From contig NZ_CALMAW010000118.1 of NCBI RefSeq assembly GCF_937859915.1, forward strand, positions 25,677 through 89,676: a stretch of DNA of 64,000 nt, read 5' to 3'. This stretch comes from an uncultured Sphingomonas sp. (GTDB lineage Bacteria > Pseudomonadota > Alphaproteobacteria > Sphingomonadales > Sphingomonadaceae). Both the position numbers and the translations under genes were made by a program. Positions 30,929 to 39,392 of this stretch are shown in pieces. How positions within the stretch are numbered: position 1 is the stretch's first letter; each line of letters begins with the position of its first letter. The notes under the pieces are model-generated. The model did not search any database, was not told the DNA's origin, and was given only the letters and a program-made list of their open reading frames with translations.

Positions 30929-31061
30929 CGGTGACGGTCCGTTCGTCAGAGTGAGGCGCGACCGTAGCGGACGCGGTCCGCCGCGCAAGCATGGCGATCG
31001 CCGCTGCCCGTCGCGCACAATAAGACTTTCCAGCGCGCATCGGACCGCCTAGACGGCGCGT

Positions 31062-31153
31062 ATCCCCGGGGGGCCGCTCATGCGCGGCTGAGAGGTGGGC
31101 AGCAGCCCACGACCCGCTGAACCTGATCCGGCTAACACCGGCGTAGGGAGGGT
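31062..31153 (+). promoter_or_regulatory. TPP (thiamine pyrophosphate) riboswitch
   Basis: All conserved THI-box parts are present: GCGCGGCTGAGA at 31082-31093, ACCCGCTGAACCTGATCCGG at 31112-31131, then CTAACACCGGCGTAGGGAGG to 31151. The P3-type hairpin is GTGGGC/GCCCAC. The 3' AGGGAGGG (31145-31152) closes P1 but can also pair with CCCTCC at 31172-31177. CCCTCC can alternatively pair with GGAG at 31182-31185. This suggests a switch controlling translation initiation: TPP bound would hide the ribosome site, TPP free would expose it. It heads the receptor/kinase-like/PnuT-like operon. The aptamer is certain by motif; the mechanism is inferred. Confidence 0.95.
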
Positions 31154-31198
31154 CCGCGGCCGGTCCGTTGTCCCTCCATGTGGAGCGGAAGCGAGACG

Positions 31199-31228
31199 AT
31201 GGCTGACGACAACCTTCATGACTGTTGA
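31199..31228 (+). CDS. Putative nine-codon leader ORF overlapping the receptor start
   Basis: ATG at 31199 is well placed behind GGAAG at 31187-31191 and encodes MADDNLHDC before TGA at 31226-31228. It overlaps the receptor ATG at 31218 in another frame. The receptor ATG itself has no clear ribosome site, so translation may be coupled through this leader. An alternative is a small frameshift that separates a MADDN start from the receptor. Confidence 0.3.
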   Translation: MADDNLHDC

Positions 31229-33539
31229 AAATGGCGCGCGCGGTCTCGGGGCGCTGTATAGAGGTGCGGCCTGGCGCGCGCTGGCGATGCCCGCGCTGCT
31301 CCTCGCCTCCTCCGCCCATGCCGCCGCCGCGCCCGACGACACGGATCCCGCGAGCATCCGTGTCGTCGGGCGTCCTGATCCCGAGGGGCTGCTGCCGGCG
31401 CAGGCCGCACCGAAGGCGGTCAGCGCGATCTCGGCGGACTTCATTTCCAAGCAGGCGCCGACGCTCAACGCCTTCCAGCTCGTCAGCCTGCTCCCCGGCG
31501 CGAACGTGTCGTCGAGCGATCCCTACGGCCTGTCGGTGAGCTCGAGCCTGACGCTGCGCGGGCTCGGGCAGGACGAGATCGGCGTGCTGATGGAAGGCGC
31601 GCCGCAGAACGACATCGGCTATTATTACGCCTATCCCTCCCAGCTCGCCGACGCCGAGAACATCCGCCAGATCAGCCTGTCGCAGGGCGCGGTGGACATC
31701 GACTCCCCGACCGTGGGCGGGGCGGGCGGGCTGCTGTCGCTGTCGCTCGACGACCCGCACGCGCGGCGCGGCGCGCTGGTCGATCTGTCGCTCGGCTCCT
31801 ATGCCGAGCGCCGCGCCTTCGTCCGGCTCGACAGCGGGACGATCGGGGCGACCGGGCTCAAGGCGTTCCTGTCCTATTCGTACAACCGCGCCGACAATTG
31901 GCGCGGCGCGGGCTTCGACACCCGCAGCCACGTCGACGCCAAGCTGCTCGACGAATGGGGCGACGGCAACCGTGCCAGCGTCTCGGTGTCGTTCAACGAC
32001 GCCGACACCTCGACCTATCCGAGCCCGACGCTCGCCGACTGGCAGGCCGAGGGGCGCGGCTTCAACTACGACAAGCACTATAGCGACGGCGACACCAATT
32101 ACTGGCGGCTCTACCGCAGCCCGTTCCGCAACATCTATGTGTCCGCGCCGGTGCATGTCGCGCTCAGCGACCGGCTGACGCTCGACAGCACGAGCTATGT
32201 GCAGTTCGGCTACGGCAATTCGCCTTACGGCACGACGCTGGGCGAGACGGGCAATTATCTCGGGACCGAGGCGCTCGCGCCGATCGCGCTGCCCGGCGCG
32301 GAGGGCGGCGAGGCGACGGTGCTCGGCAATTTCACCGGCAACCAGTTCCGCGCGGGCAATGTCAGCAAGCTCGGCCTCCACCTCGGCGCGCATCGGCTCG
32401 TCGCGGGCCTGTGGTTCGACGACGGCACCGATCACGACGTCCAATCCTATACGGCGATCAATGCCGACGGCCACCCGACCGACCCGTGGGGCTATGCCGA
32501 CAACGCGATCCGCACCAACGACGGCCGGCTGCTCGCCTATGAGAATGAGCGTACCCGCACCGTCACCAAGGGCTTCTTTCTCGCCGACAGCATCGCGGTG
32601 ACGCCGCGGCTGACGCTCGACATCGGCTTCAAGGGCGTCGACGTGCTCCACCATGGCCGCAATGATCTGCCCGGCCCGCAATCGAGGGTGCGCTTCGACA
32701 GCTTCGCCGCGCTGCCGCGTGTGGCCGCCCACTACCAGATCGACGACCGCCAACAGATCTTCGCCAACGTCACGACGAACTTCCGCGCGCCCGACGAATA
32801 TACGCTCTACAACAGCTATGACGGCGGCGAGATCAGCGGGCAGGGGACGACCAAGCTCAAGAATGAATATTCGGTCTCGGAGGAGCTCGGCTACCGCTAT
32901 ATCGGCGCGAACCTCTCGGCGTCGCTGACCGCCTTCCACTATCATTTCCGCAACCGACAGCTGGCGACCGTGATCGACGACGGCGGCGCGCTGATCAACT
33001 CGACGATCAACGCCGGCCGCCAGACCAGCTACGGGCTCGACGGCGAGATCGACTATCGGCCCGCCAAGGGCGTCAGCCTCTACGTCTCGGGCGAATATCT
33101 GCATGCGCGGATCGACGACGACCTGCCCGTCGACGGCGACTATCTGCCGACCAGGGGCAAGCATGCGGTGTCGAGCCCGACCGTCCAGCTCGGGCTCGGC
33201 GGCACCTATGACGACGGCCGGCTGTTCGGCAGCGCCGCGCTCAAATATGTCGGCCGGCAATATGCCACCTTCACCAACGACGAGAGCATCATGGGCTATG
33301 CGACGCTCGACCTGTCGGTCGGCGTGCATCTCGCAGGACTGATCGATGCGCAGCGCACCGATCTGCGGCTCAACCTGATCAACGCGACCAACCCGCATGT
33401 GCTCTCGGGCGTCGAGGCGATCAGCACCAACGCGCAGGACACGGTCGGCCGCAACGGCACGCCGATCGCCGGATCGCCGCCGGCTTATTATGTCGGCAGC
33501 GGACGGGCGCTGGTCGCGACGGTGTCGCGGGCCTTCTAG
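31218..33539 (+). CDS. TPP-riboswitch-controlled TonB-dependent receptor (probable thiamine receptor)
   Basis: A 773-residue outer-membrane receptor. The signal sequence core is ALAMPALLLASSAHAAAA. The plug contains LTLRGLGQDEIGVLMEGAPQ and IRQISLSQGAVDIDSPTVGG, followed by a barrel ending LVATVSRAF. The TPP riboswitch just upstream and the PnuT-like permease downstream identify it as a thiamine or thiamine-phosphate receptor of the kind reported as riboswitch-regulated outer-membrane receptors (OMR1-type). Substrate assignment rests on context. ATG 31218 is the only reasonable in-frame start, although the good ribosome site belongs to an overlapping nine-codon ORF. The next gene begins 52 bases after the stop. 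Confidence 0.9.
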   Translation: MTVENGARGLGALYRGAAWRALAMPALLLASSAHAAAAPDDTDPASIRVVGRPDPEGLLPAQAAPKAVSAISADFISKQAPTLNAFQLVSLLPGANVSSSDPYGLSVSSSLTLRGLGQDEIGVLMEGAPQNDIGYYYAYPSQLADAENIRQISLSQGAVDIDSPTVGGAGGLLSLSLDDPHARRGALVDLSLGSYAERRAFVRLDSGTIGATGLKAFLSYSYNRADNWRGAGFDTRSHVDAKLLDEWGDGNRASVSVSFNDADTSTYPSPTLADWQAEGRGFNYDKHYSDGDTNYWRLYRSPFRNIYVSAPVHVALSDRLTLDSTSYVQFGYGNSPYGTTLGETGNYLGTEALAPIALPGAEGGEATVLGNFTGNQFRAGNVSKLGLHLGAHRLVAGLWFDDGTDHDVQSYTAINADGHPTDPWGYADNAIRTNDGRLLAYENERTRTVTKGFFLADSIAVTPRLTLDIGFKGVDVLHHGRNDLPGPQSRVRFDSFAALPRVAAHYQIDDRQQIFANVTTNFRAPDEYTLYNSYDGGEISGQGTTKLKNEYSVSEELGYRYIGANLSASLTAFHYHFRNRQLATVIDDGGALINSTINAGRQTSYGLDGEIDYRPAKGVSLYVSGEYLHARIDDDLPVDGDYLPTRGKHAVSSPTVQLGLGGTYDDGRLFGSAALKYVGRQYATFTNDESIMGYATLDLSVGVHLAGLIDAQRTDLRLNLINATNPHVLSGVEAISTNAQDTVGRNGTPIAGSPPAYYVGSGRALVATVSRAF

Positions 33540-33591
33540 CGATGAGGGGCCGCGCCTATACGCACGCGCTGCCGATCCGGGCAGACCGCGG

Positions 33592-34743
33592 ATGAGCAGC
33601 GTGGCGCCGCCCTCGAGCCATCTCGTCCACGGCATGGGGCTGGCGCTCGAGACGCCGCGCTGGCCGGCGATCACGACCGCGGAGGCGGACGCGATCCTGC
33701 GCCGCTTCCCCGCAGCCGGCCGACTGGTCGGGCTGCGCTGGCATTCGCCGCGGCCCTTCTCGGCTGCGACGCTCGTCCAGACCAGCCGCGGCGAATTCCT
33801 GCTCAAGCGGCATCACCACCGGCTGCGCGACGCCGCCGGTCTGGCCGAGGAACATGCCTTCATCGCACATCTTGGCGCCGCGGGCCTTTCCGTGCCGGAC
33901 ATCCTGACGGCGGACAGCGGGGCGACGGCCGTGATCGCGGGGGACTGGAGCTACGAGCTGCACCGCAAGGCGCCGGGCGCCGACCTCTATCGCGACCGCC
34001 CCTCCTGGACGCCCTTCCTGTCGCACGACCATGCGCGCGCCGCCGGCGCGGCGCTGGCCCGGACGCATCGCGCGGCGCGCGACTTCGCCGCGCCCGCACG
34101 ACCGCCGCGGCCGCTGGTCGCCAGTTTCACGATCCTGCCTGCCGCCGACCCACAAGCTGCCGCCGATGCCTATGTCGCGGCGCGGCCGGCGCTCGCGGCG
34201 TTCCTGGCGCCGCGGGCGTGGCAGGCGCGGATCGCGCAGCTGATCGACGCGCTGGGCGAAGGGCTGGCGGACCGCCTGGCCAACCAGCCGTCGCTTTGGA
34301 CGCATAACGACTGGCATCCCTCCAACCTGCTCTGGTCCCGCGACGGCGCGGTCCGGACCCTGTTCGACTTCGGGCTGGCGACGCGGACCTGCGCGGTCCA
34401 TGATCTGGCCACCGCGATCGAGCGGACCGCCATCGCCTGGCTGGACCTGGGGAACGGGCGCGACGACACCATCGCCGACGCCGATGCCGCGGCAGCCCTG
34501 ATCGCCGGATATCGGACCGAGCTTCCGCTGAGCAACGACGATGTCGAGACGGTCGCGCGTCTGCTGCCGCTCGTTCATGTCGAATTCGCGCTGTCCGAGA
34601 TCGACTATTTCACGGCTATCCTCGCCGATCCGGACCAGGCGGCGCTGGCGTGGGACGGCTATCTGATCGGCCATGCCGACTGGTTTTGCTCGACCCCGGG
34701 GCACGCATTTCTCGCGCAGCTGACCATCGCGGCGTCGGCCTGA
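33592..34743 (+). CDS. Phosphotransferase (APH/choline kinase fold), candidate thiamine kinase
   Basis: A 383-residue kinase-like protein. The N-terminal lobe carries EFLLKRHHHR (Lys for ATP). The catalytic loop is THNDWHPSNLLW, with Asp and Asn in the HxDxxxxN pattern, and the metal-binding motif is FDFGLATR. The fold covers aminoglycoside, choline, homoserine and thiamine kinases. Because it sits between a TPP-riboswitch-controlled receptor and a PnuT-like permease (whose start overlaps its stop), phosphorylation of imported thiamine, trapping it as thiamine phosphate, is the best inference. ATG 33592 lacks a strong ribosome site, so the start is moderately sure. Confidence 0.8.
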   Translation: MSSVAPPSSHLVHGMGLALETPRWPAITTAEADAILRRFPAAGRLVGLRWHSPRPFSAATLVQTSRGEFLLKRHHHRLRDAAGLAEEHAFIAHLGAAGLSVPDILTADSGATAVIAGDWSYELHRKAPGADLYRDRPSWTPFLSHDHARAAGAALARTHRAARDFAAPARPPRPLVASFTILPAADPQAAADAYVAARPALAAFLAPRAWQARIAQLIDALGEGLADRLANQPSLWTHNDWHPSNLLWSRDGAVRTLFDFGLATRTCAVHDLATAIERTAIAWLDLGNGRDDTIADADAAAALIAGYRTELPLSNDDVETVARLLPLVHVEFALSEIDYFTAILADPDQAALAWDGYLIGHADWFCSTPGHAFLAQLTIAASA

Positions 34744-35303
34744 TGTCGTGGCTCGAGATCGTCGCGGTCGTCATCAGCTTCCTCGGAATCTGGTTTACCG
34801 CGAAGCGGTGGATGCTGTGCTGGCCGATCAACCTGCTGGCCTGCGCGCTGTACTTCGCGCTGTTCCTGGACGTGCGGCTCTATGCCGACATGGTGCTGCA
34901 GGCGCTGTTCGGCGCCGCAATCGTCTATGGCTGGATCGCCTGGGCATCGGGGAAAGCGAGCGGCGGCGATATTGCGGTCGCGCGGCTCGCGCCAGCGCCC
35001 GCGCTCGGCGGATTGCTGGCCGGCGCGGTCGGCGCCGTCGCGATCGGTTGGTTCACCAGCCGCCACACCAATGCGGCGCTGCCCTGGACCGACGCGACGC
35101 TGAGCAGTTTCAGCCTCGTCGCCCAATATTGGACGGCGCGCCGCCACGCCGCGAGTTGGCTGCTCTGGATCGTGGTCGACATCGCCTATGTCGGGATGTT
35201 CCTGTTCAAGGGGTTGCTGCTCACCGCCGGTCTCTATGCTGCGATGGTCGCACTCGCGGGGTTCGGCTATGCGCGGTGGCGGAACGCGGCGACGTCCGCC
35301 TAG
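34743..35303 (+). CDS. pnuT: PnuC-family transporter, probably PnuT (thiamine uptake)
   Basis: A 186-residue membrane protein with about six to seven hydrophobic segments. The PnuC-type pattern is clear: KRWMLCWPINLLACALYFAL, then LYADMVLQALFGAAIVYGWI and WLLWIVVDIAYVGMFL. PnuC proteins carry nicotinamide riboside, while those in TPP-riboswitch operons (PnuT) are linked to thiamine. The start overlaps the stop of the kinase-like gene (TGATG), so the two are coupled. Energy-independent facilitated transport, pulled by the upstream kinase, is the usual model for the family. Confidence 0.88.
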   Translation: MSWLEIVAVVISFLGIWFTAKRWMLCWPINLLACALYFALFLDVRLYADMVLQALFGAAIVYGWIAWASGKASGGDIAVARLAPAPALGGLLAGAVGAVAIGWFTSRHTNAALPWTDATLSSFSLVAQYWTARRHAASWLLWIVVDIAYVGMFLFKGLLLTAGLYAAMVALAGFGYARWRNAATSA

Positions 35304-35367
35304 CCGGTAGGACGGGCCGTTCCCGAACCGCTCGACGATCGCACCCATTTCTGCGATCGAGGCCGCG

Positions 35368-35874
35368 ATGGCGACTTCCAATCGACTGCGGCGATCCGCG
35401 CGGATCATCATGCTCGACGAGGCGGGACGCGTGCTGCTGCTCCGCTTCGCCATCCCGCGCAAGAGCGGCCCCTATCGCTTCTGGGCAACGCCGGGCGGCG
35501 AGGTCGAGCCCGGCGAGGCGCTTCTCGCGGCGGCGCAGCGCGAACTGCTAGAGGAGCTCGGCCTCTCGCTGCCGCTTACCGGGCCGGTGCACCACGCCGC
35601 GGGCGTGTTCGAGTTCAAGCATGAGGTGGTCGACAATCGCGACGTCTTCTACCTTGCGCGCTTCGTGGGCGGACCGATCAGCCTGGGCGGCATCGACGAG
35701 GCCGAGCGATCGGTCCTGCAAGACTGGCGGTGGTGGAGCGCCGCGGAGATCGAGGCGAGCGCCGACCCGATCTATCCGCCCGATCTCGCGAGCGTGGTTC
35801 GTGCGCTAGGCGGCGATATGGAACGGGTTGTTGGCGGCGCTGCGCCGACCGACGACGATCGCCTGTCCCGATAG
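35368..35874 (+). CDS. NUDIX hydrolase
   Basis: A 168-residue NUDIX enzyme. The NUDIX box is complete (GGEVEPGEALLAAAQRELLE followed by ELGL), meeting G-x5-E-x7-R-E-U-x-E-E-x-G-U. It hydrolyses a nucleoside-diphosphate-linked substrate. It starts 64 bases after pnuT in the same direction with GAGG upstream of ATG 35368, so it may be the fourth gene of the thiamine operon. Some fungal thiamine pyrophosphokinases carry NUDIX domains, which makes a thiamine-related role conceivable; a nucleotide-housekeeping role is equally possible. Confidence 0.85.
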   Translation: MATSNRLRRSARIIMLDEAGRVLLLRFAIPRKSGPYRFWATPGGEVEPGEALLAAAQRELLEELGLSLPLTGPVHHAAGVFEFKHEVVDNRDVFYLARFVGGPISLGGIDEAERSVLQDWRWWSAAEIEASADPIYPPDLASVVRALGGDMERVVGGAAPTDDDRLSR

Positions 35875-36738: not shown

Positions 36739-37062
36739 ACACCACCCGAACTGATAGCCGCAGTCGCCGTTCGGCCTAGGGCCCAATGGTAACCGCGACG
36801 TTAACTTGCAAGCCGTTGCACAGCCTTCATTACTGTAACATGGACCGCCCTACCGCATGAATAGGGCTGCAACAATCGCGCAGCGACCGGCGCGACCGGC
36901 GCACGGCCCATCGCATCGCAGCCGTGCCAATGCGACGGCGTTCGAAGTGATGGCGTGCGCGGATCATCGTGCCGCGTATCCAGCGGCGCGGCGGGGCTGG
37001 ACGGCCGCGCAAATCCCGGTATCGCGCGAAAGGCGGGCAAGCGTTGCGCGGAGAATGATCTG

Positions 37063-38313
37063 ATGGCCTTTCCGATAGATGCCGTTCGCGCACAATTTCC
37101 GGCGCTGGCCGTGTCGGACGACGGGCGGCCGCGGCTCTATTTCGACGCGCCCGGCGGCACGCAGGTCTGTCTCGCCGCGATCGAGGCGATCGGTCACCAT
37201 CTTCGCGCCGGCACCGCCAATCTCGGCGGGCCGTTCGCAACCTCGCTCGCCTGCGGCGCGCTCAGCCGCGCGGCGCATGCCGCGGCGGCCGACCTGATCG
37301 GCGGCGATGCCGACGAGATCGCCTTCGGCCCCAACATGACCACGCTGACGCTCGCCCTGTCGCGCGCGCTCGCGCAGTCCTGGCAGGCCGGCGACGAGAT
37401 CGTGCTGACCCGGCTCGATCACGACGCCAATGTCGCGCCGTGGCTGCTCGCCGCGCGCGACCGCGACGTCACCGTCCGCTGGCTCGATTTCGACCTCGAT
37501 AGCGGCGCCTTGCGCTGCGACGATCTCGCCGCGCTGCTGTCGTCGAGGACGAGGCTGGTCGCGATCGGCGGGGCCAGCAACGCGCTCGGAACGCTCAATG
37601 ACGTCGCCGCGATCGTCGAGATCGTGCGGCGCGGCAGCGATGCCTTGATCTTCGTCGATGCGGTGCAGTCGGTGCCGCATGTGCCGACCGACGTCGCCGC
37701 GCTCGGCTGCGACTTCCTCGCCTGCTCGCCCTATAAATTCTTCGGTCCGCATATGGGCGTGCTGTGGGGCCGCACCGCGGAAATGGCGAAGATCGCGGCC
37801 TACAAGGTCCGGCCGGCGACCGAGCAGCCGGCGGCGCTGCGCTTCGAGACGGGGACGCCGTCGTTCGAGGCGCAGGCCGGGCTGGTCGCCACGGTCGACT
37901 ATCTTGCGACATTACGTCCCCCGCTGCCCGTGGCGGGCGATCGACGGACCGCGTTGCGCGCGGCGATGACCGCCTGCGCCGACTATGAGGCCGGCTTGAC
38001 GCAGCGCCTGCTCGACGGCCTGTCGCGTGTCGCCGGGCTGCGGCTCTACGGGCCGCCAGGCGTCGCAGGGCGGGTGCCGACCTTCGCCTTCACGATCGCC
38101 GGCCAGGCCCCGTCCGCCGTTGCCGCGCAGCTCGCGGCGCACGGAATCCACGCCTGGGCCGGCCATTTCTACGCGGTCGAGGCGATCCGGCGGCTCGGCC
38201 TTGCGGACAGCGGCGGGCTCGTCCGCGTCGGGCTGTGCCACTACAACACCGCTGCCGAGGTCGACCGGCTGGTCGAGGTGCTGGTCGCGATCGGGCGCGG
38301 GCGCGTCGCATGA
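37063..38313 (+). CDS. Class V aminotransferase (cysteine desulfurase-like PLP enzyme)
   Basis: A 416-residue fold-type-I PLP enzyme. The N-terminal YFDAPGGTQVCLAAIEAI and the PLP-phosphate region GPNMTTLTLALSRALA precede the PLP Asp in FVDAVQSVPHVPTDV and the Schiff-base Lys in LACSPYKFFGPHMG. The family includes cysteine desulfurases and other class V enzymes; no mobile catalytic Cys loop is clearly seen, so another lyase or transaminase activity is possible. GGAGA is placed before ATG 37063. Its stop overlaps the start of the next PLP gene (ATGA), implying linked steps. Confidence 0.85.
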   Translation: MAFPIDAVRAQFPALAVSDDGRPRLYFDAPGGTQVCLAAIEAIGHHLRAGTANLGGPFATSLACGALSRAAHAAAADLIGGDADEIAFGPNMTTLTLALSRALAQSWQAGDEIVLTRLDHDANVAPWLLAARDRDVTVRWLDFDLDSGALRCDDLAALLSSRTRLVAIGGASNALGTLNDVAAIVEIVRRGSDALIFVDAVQSVPHVPTDVAALGCDFLACSPYKFFGPHMGVLWGRTAEMAKIAAYKVRPATEQPAALRFETGTPSFEAQAGLVATVDYLATLRPPLPVAGDRRTALRAAMTACADYEAGLTQRLLDGLSRVAGLRLYGPPGVAGRVPTFAFTIAGQAPSAVAAQLAAHGIHAWAGHFYAVEAIRRLGLADSGGLVRVGLCHYNTAAEVDRLVEVLVAIGRGRVA

Positions 38314-39392
38314 CCGAGGCCGATCATGAGGCGAAGCAAGGCTGCACGCACTTTCTGTCGCAGCATGTCCCCGTTGCCCCGCGGACGCTGCTCGCGACGC
38401 TGGCGGCGCATCCGGCCGCGGCCGCGCGCGCCGACGTCTATGGCGAGGGCGGGGCGGTCGGCCTGCTCGAACAGCGCGTCGTCGCGCTGCTGGGCAAGCC
38501 GAGCGGGCAGTTCTTCATCAAAGGCGTGACCGCGCAATTGTGCGTGCTGCGCGCCTATGCCGAGGCACGGGGCACGCGCAACGTCGTGATCCATCCGCTG
38601 AGCCATCTCGACCATGACGAGAGCCACGCGATCGAGCGTGTCGCCGATCTCACCGCGATCCGGCTCGGGCGGCATGCGCCGTTCACCGTCGCGGATCTCG
38701 AGCGGGTCGACGTGCCGCTCGCCGCCGTCGTCGTCGAGCTGCCGCTGCGGCGGGCGGGCTATCTGCTGCCCGATTACGACGCGCTCGTAGCGATCGCCGC
38801 CTGGTGCCGGGCGCAGCGCGTGCCGCTGCATATCGACGGCGCGCGGCTCTGGGAGGCGGCCGCCGGCTACGGCGTCCCGCTCGACCGGATAGCCGCGCTG
38901 GCGGACAGCCTCTATGTGTCCTTCTACAAGGGTCTGGGCGGGCTCGGCGGCGCGCTGGTGGCGGGATCGACGGCATTCATCGCATCGCTGGCGGCATGGA
39001 AGACACGCTATGGCGGCGATCTCTACACCGCCTATCCGCAGGCGATATCGGCGCTCATCGGACTCGATCTGCAGCTGCCGCGCATGCCCGACTATGTCGC
39101 ACGCGCCCGCGCGCTCGCGAAAGGGCTCCAGTCGTTGCCGGATATCCTTCTCCAGCCACAGATACCGCACGGCAATGCCTTCCAGATCTGGATGCCCGGC
39201 GATCCCGCGGCCCTGGCGGACCGCCATCGTGCCTTTGCGCGCGCGCACAGAGTGTGGCTGTTCGGCGGGTTCCAGCCGACCGCGCTGGCGAGCCATGCGA
39301 TGGCCGAAATCGTCATCGGCGACGGCTCGGATCAATATTCGATCGAGCAGGCGGTCGGCTGGATCGGCGCGTTCCTGAAGCAGCGCGACTGA
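38310..39392 (+). CDS. Threonine aldolase-type beta-eliminating lyase (PLP enzyme)
   Basis: A 360-residue fold-type-I PLP enzyme. The active-site strand LHIDGARLWEAAAGYG holds the PLP Asp-Arg pair and VSFYKGLGGLGGAL the Schiff-base Lys, as in low-specificity threonine aldolases and beta-eliminating lyases. HLDHDESHAIE corresponds to the His that stacks on PLP. Translationally coupled to the class V gene (ATGA), which suggests both handle the same amino-acid pathway; the identity of the substrate is unknown. Confidence 0.88.
   Translation: MTEADHEAKQGCTHFLSQHVPVAPRTLLATLAAHPAAAARADVYGEGGAVGLLEQRVVALLGKPSGQFFIKGVTAQLCVLRAYAEARGTRNVVIHPLSHLDHDESHAIERVADLTAIRLGRHAPFTVADLERVDVPLAAVVVELPLRRAGYLLPDYDALVAIAAWCRAQRVPLHIDGARLWEAAAGYGVPLDRIAALADSLYVSFYKGLGGLGGALVAGSTAFIASLAAWKTRYGGDLYTAYPQAISALIGLDLQLPRMPDYVARARALAKGLQSLPDILLQPQIPHGNAFQIWMPGDPAALADRHRAFARAHRVWLFGGFQPTALASHAMAEIVIGDGSDQYSIEQAVGWIGAFLKQRD

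Follow-up and report, generated by a model that had tools for sequence, protein, structure and literature searches.

A predicted TPP-controlled thiamine-salvage operon with an APH-fold kinase in sphingomonads

The 64,000-nucleotide stretch of an uncultured Sphingomonas sp. analyzed here (from contig NZ_CALMAW010000118.1; hereafter the window) carries a thiamine pyrophosphate (TPP) riboswitch followed, on the same strand, by genes for a TonB-dependent receptor, an APH-fold kinase and a PnuC-family permease. We consider it probable that this cassette is a TPP-repressed operon for thiamine salvage, in which the receptor would import thiamine, a PnuT-type permease would let it permeate and the kinase would trap it. 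The riboswitch, the gene families, their conserved linkage, a gap in the thiamine pathway and a kinase fold with intact catalytic residues were all observed directly. A first-pass annotation of the window had proposed a TPP-controlled salvage operon of these three genes, and the proposal is supported by conserved synteny and by the failure to find either a thiamine pyrophosphokinase (TPK) or ThiK.

Riboswitch and cassette genes in the window

The only Rfam match in the window that reaches its gathering score is a TPP riboswitch aptamer (RF00059), placed by cmscan at 31057-31166 on the forward strand with 66.7 bits against a gathering score of 54.3 (E 6.6e-11 for 64 kb), far above chance. The first-pass annotation was right about the element and slightly late about its start, which it had put at 31062. 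The assembly to which the window belongs (137 contigs, 80% complete) contains two TPP aptamers in total, the other lying upstream of thiC on contig C40. We built our own covariance model, R1, from six aptamers: those of the window, of loci L006, L037, L038 and L041, and the thiC one. R1 gives the window aptamer 122.3 bits, a score to be read with the aptamer's own part in the model in mind.

The predicted thiamine receptor is encoded at 31218-33539 on the forward strand (PF00593, 1e-33; plug domain PF07715, 3.4e-10). Its start codon, the ATG at 31218, was picked by eye, as the mechanical open reading frame (ORF) begins at 31095, within the aptamer; from this ATG the N-terminus resembles a signal peptide. 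After 52 bases comes the kinase gene (33592-34743, forward; PF01636, 4.5e-25, 89.2 bits), which overlaps the permease gene (34743-35303, forward) by 1 base at TGATG. The permease matches PF04973 (NMN_transporter) with 156 bits (1.3e-45) over the full length of the domain, positions 1-175 of 175, and matches the solved PnuC 4qtn at E 2.6e-7. We read it as PnuT, a thiamine facilitator, from the riboswitch and the neighboring genes, which suggest thiamine as its substrate. The Pfam matches confirm the earlier reading of receptor, kinase-like protein, PnuT-like permease and NUDIX protein in series on the forward strand. Upstream of the aptamer, in divergent orientation, lies a gene for an M28 peptidase.

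Conservation in sphingomonads and in a second order

A protein search of 147 genomes of the order at E 1e-10 found the kinase in two, the window's own and G132. We scanned a collection of species genomes with a profile of 11 kinases, by way of short peptide patterns, and obtained at least 264 stretches encoding relatives. The best 80 of these (L057-L136) were analyzed; they come mostly from Sphingomonas, Novosphingobium and Sphingobium, with a few metagenome-assembled genomes (MAGs) under other labels. By tblastn, 79 of the 80 loci have receptor, kinase and permease in the same order and on the same strand, the exception being L134, where no receptor was found. At each junction the gap between matches is below 40 bases in all but three loci. 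In L071 the contig begins within the receptor gene, in L065 and L110 the receptor is split in two, and in L093 the contig ends within the permease gene. In 75 of the 80 loci the receptor is preceded by an R1 match of at least 100 bits; we take two of these loci, L084 and L133, to be identical with L041 and L006 of the model-building set. The five loci lacking an aptamer are L057, L071 (where the upstream DNA is missing), L131, L134 and L135.

The permease gave a second way into the family, with matches in 84 of 298 genomes at E 1e-10. Nine of the 20 loci fetched from these contain the triad (L037-L045). Counting the window and L006, the triad was thus found in 11 loci, five of them with an aptamer (the window, L006, L037, L038 and L041). 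Receptor, kinase and permease form a conserved unit. The cassette of L042-L045, from 1.9-2.1 Mb genomes of one genus, is distant (36-41% kinase identity) and has no recognizable riboswitch; L043 and L045 also contain CRISPR repeats.

The unit occurs outside the order as well. Among 385 genomes sampled across the class, a search at E 1e-20 found one kinase besides the window's own, in G718, a genome of another family and order. Its locus repeats the arrangement of the window: a TPP aptamer comes first, then the receptor at 39% identity, the kinase at 36% and the permease at 35%. The kinase is present in 29 of 200 genomes of that family (E 1e-15), from which we examined 30 loci (L147 and L179-L207). 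The full triad is found in 22 of the 30, at approximately 33-50% identity, counting L179 and L204, whose receptor or kinase is fragmented. The receptor is missing from L186, L187 and L205, the permease from L200 and L202, and both from L203 and L206; in L207 the sequence covers receptor and kinase and then ends.

An aptamer scores above gathering in eight of the 30 loci (L147, L179-L184 and L193). Two more, in L200 and L202, have an enlarged internal stem and score below gathering, which brings the loci with a riboswitch to ten. A strict-pattern scan of 40 loci for enlarged riboswitches missed by cmscan returned the eight known second-order aptamers and those of L200 and L202, and nothing more. 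In L200 (5238-11683) and L202 (4968-11021), the unit of TPP aptamer and receptor is followed by an NMT1/THI5 binding protein, and an ABC ATPase and an ABC permease precede the kinase; there is no PnuT. Because these loci keep the kinase but have a different importer, they fit a kinase that acts on the imported compound.

Thiamine phosphorylation and the APH-fold kinase

Imported thiamine is converted to TPP either in one step by TPK or in two, by a thiamine kinase and then ThiL. We searched for TPK (TIGR01378) in 74 genomes of the sphingomonad family, the window's 80% complete assembly included, and found it in none of the 40 with the cassette or the 34 without (20 lacking a kinase match and 14 lacking a permease match, each at E 1e-10). 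The model matches in seven of 14 control genomes. TPK was likewise found in none of 29 kinase-bearing and 17 kinase-free genomes of the second family; one of four extra cassette genomes has it, which makes the total one in 124 (0/74 and 1/50). ThiL and ThiK were counted in sphingomonads. ThiL is present in 74 of 74 genomes, above cut-off in 73; the window's own assembly has a fragment at a contig end that scores below cut-off, at 102.7 bits. ThiK (TIGR02721) was above cut-off in none of 30 genomes. Because TPK is so rare, ThiL universal and ThiK above cut-off absent in these samples, imported thiamine should need a thiamine kinase. Such an enzyme should otherwise be missing in sphingomonads, with the APH-fold protein as the linked candidate. 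The TPK gap extends to cassette-free genomes and is therefore a trait of the lineage; taken alone, it has no link to the cassette.

The kinase belongs to the APH family: in addition to its Pfam match it has what we take to be the catalytic Lys, the HxDxxxxN motif and the metal-binding Asp, and K72, E87, H238, D240, N245 and D259 are invariant in comparisons of 11 and of 47 kinase sequences. In an AlphaFold2 model (mean pLDDT 90.6, residues 1-19 poor) the fold is complete and of the right kind for a small-molecule kinase. The nearest solved fold is homoserine kinase 2ppq (Z 27.4, root-mean-square deviation 3.8, 304 aligned residues), level with an N-acetylhexosamine kinase (Z 27.1), while choline kinases lie near Z 20. 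At E 0.001, 2ppq and amicoumacin kinase 6sui are the only solved sequences that match the kinase profile, and the window kinase is less than 20% identical to either. Against two homoserine kinase models it scores 28-44 bits, where the cut-offs are 256-271.

We predict from the gene context and the pathway gap that this protein is a thiamine kinase, converting ATP and thiamine to thiamine monophosphate (TMP). Escherichia coli ThiK (YcfN, TIGR02721) also belongs to PF01636, with the same predicted reaction and the same need for ThiL. Outside the catalytic HxDxxxxN motif the two proteins have no detectable similarity, and TIGR02721 does not match the window kinase at E values up to 1, so by this model it is not a ThiK equivalog. 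The gene settings differ too: E. coli thiK sits between lpoB and nagZ and not beside a transporter, whereas the window kinase gene adjoins the permease. The first-pass annotation had called the protein an unrecognised thiamine kinase. The conserved gene order, together with the lack of both TPK and ThiK, favors the assignment to thiamine, but the fold was already known for this reaction from E. coli ThiK. What appears to be new is a PF01636 subfamily with no detectable sequence similarity to that enzyme.

Alternatives and proposed mechanism

Several observations weigh against thiamine salvage by this cassette. NCBIfam assigns the permease to PnuC, the nicotinamide riboside transporter (TIGR01528, 63.3 bits, above a cut-off of 42.45), and none of the sequence features examined tells PnuT from PnuC. 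Of the 20 loci found through the permease, 11 (L046-L056) have neither a receptor or kinase homolog nor a TPP aptamer; distant PnuC relatives in the sphingomonad family are therefore not all members of this system. Ten sphingomonad loci that bear the kinase and have their upstream DNA present (L039, L040, L042-L045, L057, L131, L134 and L135) lack an aptamer, as do 20 of the 30 second-order loci, some of which are cut by contig ends (for example, L191 and L206). The single TPK is in a cassette genome, MAG G461, and the ThiK model has weak matches in 13 of the 30 genomes searched, all far below cut-off. The modeled kinase fold names no substrate. In Bacteroides thetaiotaomicron, thiamine changed the transcripts of the receptor and of pnuT little, although both lie beside TPP riboswitches (PMC5613172).

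Biosynthesis, too, is mostly retained: thiC is kept in 82 of 87 cassette genomes (39/40 and 43/47), and because most keep it the cassette is not essential there. As in B. thetaiotaomicron, it would normally add to synthesis. A survey for cassette genomes with ThiL but without TMP synthesis yielded no clean auxotroph among the five that lack thiC: four have thiE above cut-off, and the fifth, G461, has no thiE above cut-off but has TPK. In one cassette-negative genome (G053, locus L148), thiE and thiL were found but neither thiC nor TPK; receptor and kinase homologs are also missing from around its PnuC-type permease.

The aptamer-free loci also indicate that part of the kinase family lies outside TPP control and may serve another purpose. 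In a kinase tree from a quick search, with SH-aLRT support only and L042-L045 as outgroup by the chosen root, L039, L040, L131, L134 and L135, all without an aptamer, form one group with support of 100; L057 has no resolved place. It is conceivable, if rather doubtful, that the family has two jobs, the riboswitch branch being a non-orthologous thiamine kinase and the riboswitch-free branch having been recruited to act on a different sulfur-containing ring compound or in the breakdown of thiamine. L040 (5943-14162), a second cassette copy in its genome (G385), has no riboswitch and has an NMT1/THI5-like protein between or beside the cassette genes, together with two 3-mercaptopyruvate-sulfurtransferase-like proteins and a flavin mononucleotide (FMN) monooxygenase of the NtaA/DmoA type; it is possibly a sulfur-compound or thiamine-degradation variant.

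The cassette might instead salvage a precursor or analogue of thiamine, such as hydroxymethylpyrimidine (HMP), hydroxyethylthiazole or a degraded pyrimidine, which the kinase would phosphorylate in place of thiamine. At two TPP-controlled loci PnuT is replaced by an ABC importer of the NMT1/THI5 type, to which the ThiXYZ importers presumably belong. PMC6593275 lists ThiXYZ under HMP, and a variant named ThiXYZ2 under vitamin B1. A TPP riboswitch alone cannot separate thiamine from its precursors. Most loci, however, have a permease of the PnuT/PnuC type, and a TonB receptor would be unusual for such small precursors; we regard this explanation as unlikely. The PnuC score and the 11 unlinked permeases are what one would expect if the genes took up nicotinamide riboside, with a riboside kinase, and a chance rearrangement had placed them behind a TPP riboswitch. 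That linkage is shared by 75 of 80 relatives and reappears in a second order, which makes chance rearrangement implausible and this account highly improbable.

A four-gene version of the operon, as in the first-pass annotation, would include the NUDIX hydrolase encoded at 35368-35874 on the forward strand (PF00293, 3.3e-20), which would cleave toxic TPP analogues or recycle TPP. The gene lies on the same strand, 64 bases past the permease, and we found no terminator-like site between them. However, searches at E 1e-5 and at E 1e-2 found no homolog of this protein in the 80 relatives' loci, which speaks against it as a fourth salvage component; two of the loci, L093 and L110, stop at the permease or shortly beyond it. 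Conservation was judged on these 80 loci and 21 others, with the 30 second-order loci outside the search; the 21 gave one weak match, in L044 (24% identity, E 7.6e-5), approximately 1.3 kb from the permease on the opposite strand. Clustering of ORFs within 3 kb revealed no conserved extra gene beside the triad, the top cluster occurring in nine of 80 loci and the next in 6-7, largely from the same strains. Because the 25 listed of 27 NCBIfam NUDIX matches are all far below their cut-offs, the protein has no specific function assignment. The four-gene version is scarcely credible, and the NUDIX gene seems best read as a neighbor outside the conserved unit. Further downstream in the window are a VC1184-type cysteine-desulfurase-like protein (36955-38313; TIGR01976, above cut-off) and, next to it, a beta-eliminating-lyase/threonine-aldolase-like protein (38235-39392).

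Under the favored reading, salvage of thiamine itself, the ligand of the receptor, the substrate of the permease, the activity of the kinase on thiamine and the direction of regulation are all predicted from sequence and context. Low cellular TPP would lead the riboswitch to permit expression of the operon. The TonB receptor would carry scarce thiamine across the outer membrane, and the PnuT-type permease would let it equilibrate across the inner one. Phosphorylation by the APH-fold kinase would yield TMP, which would be unable to leave and would pull uptake forward; ThiL, encoded elsewhere, would then make TPP, and the operon would be shut off.

The closest known design is that of Bacteroidetes, whose enzyme Tnr3 we take to be a thiamine pyrophosphokinase. 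There, according to PMC5613172, OMthi, pnuT and tnr3 combine a TPP riboswitch, a TonB-type outer-membrane transporter, PnuT and a thiamine-phosphorylating enzyme, the last called thiamine pyrophosphorylase in that text. Most genomes of that survey carry the genes as one operon; B. thetaiotaomicron has them split (BT2390, BT2396-BT2397). The same source reports that deletion of the receptor or of PnuT in B. thetaiotaomicron raises the need for thiamine approximately tenfold once biosynthesis is also deleted, and that single transporter deletions have no phenotype (PMC5613172). Where Bacteroidetes have Tnr3, the window has an APH-fold kinase predicted to make TMP, leaving ThiL to finish; and unlike a receptor-PnuT-TPK operon, neither the operon nor any of the 74 genomes yielded a match to TIGR01378. 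Searches of the open-licence literature turned up neither this kinase nor such a sphingomonad thiamine operon, which is weak evidence of absence. The cassette thus appears to be a variant of the known receptor-PnuT-pyrophosphokinase design, its pyrophosphokinase replaced by an APH-fold kinase unlike ThiK.

If so, the kinase would be the missing vitamin B1 salvage enzyme predicted for sphingomonads, which have ThiL, lack TPK and show no ThiK above cut-off. The same prediction probably holds in the second order, whose sampled genomes likewise yielded no TPK. The receptor-permease-trap design of Bacteroidetes would then have been built in these bacteria with a different enzyme.

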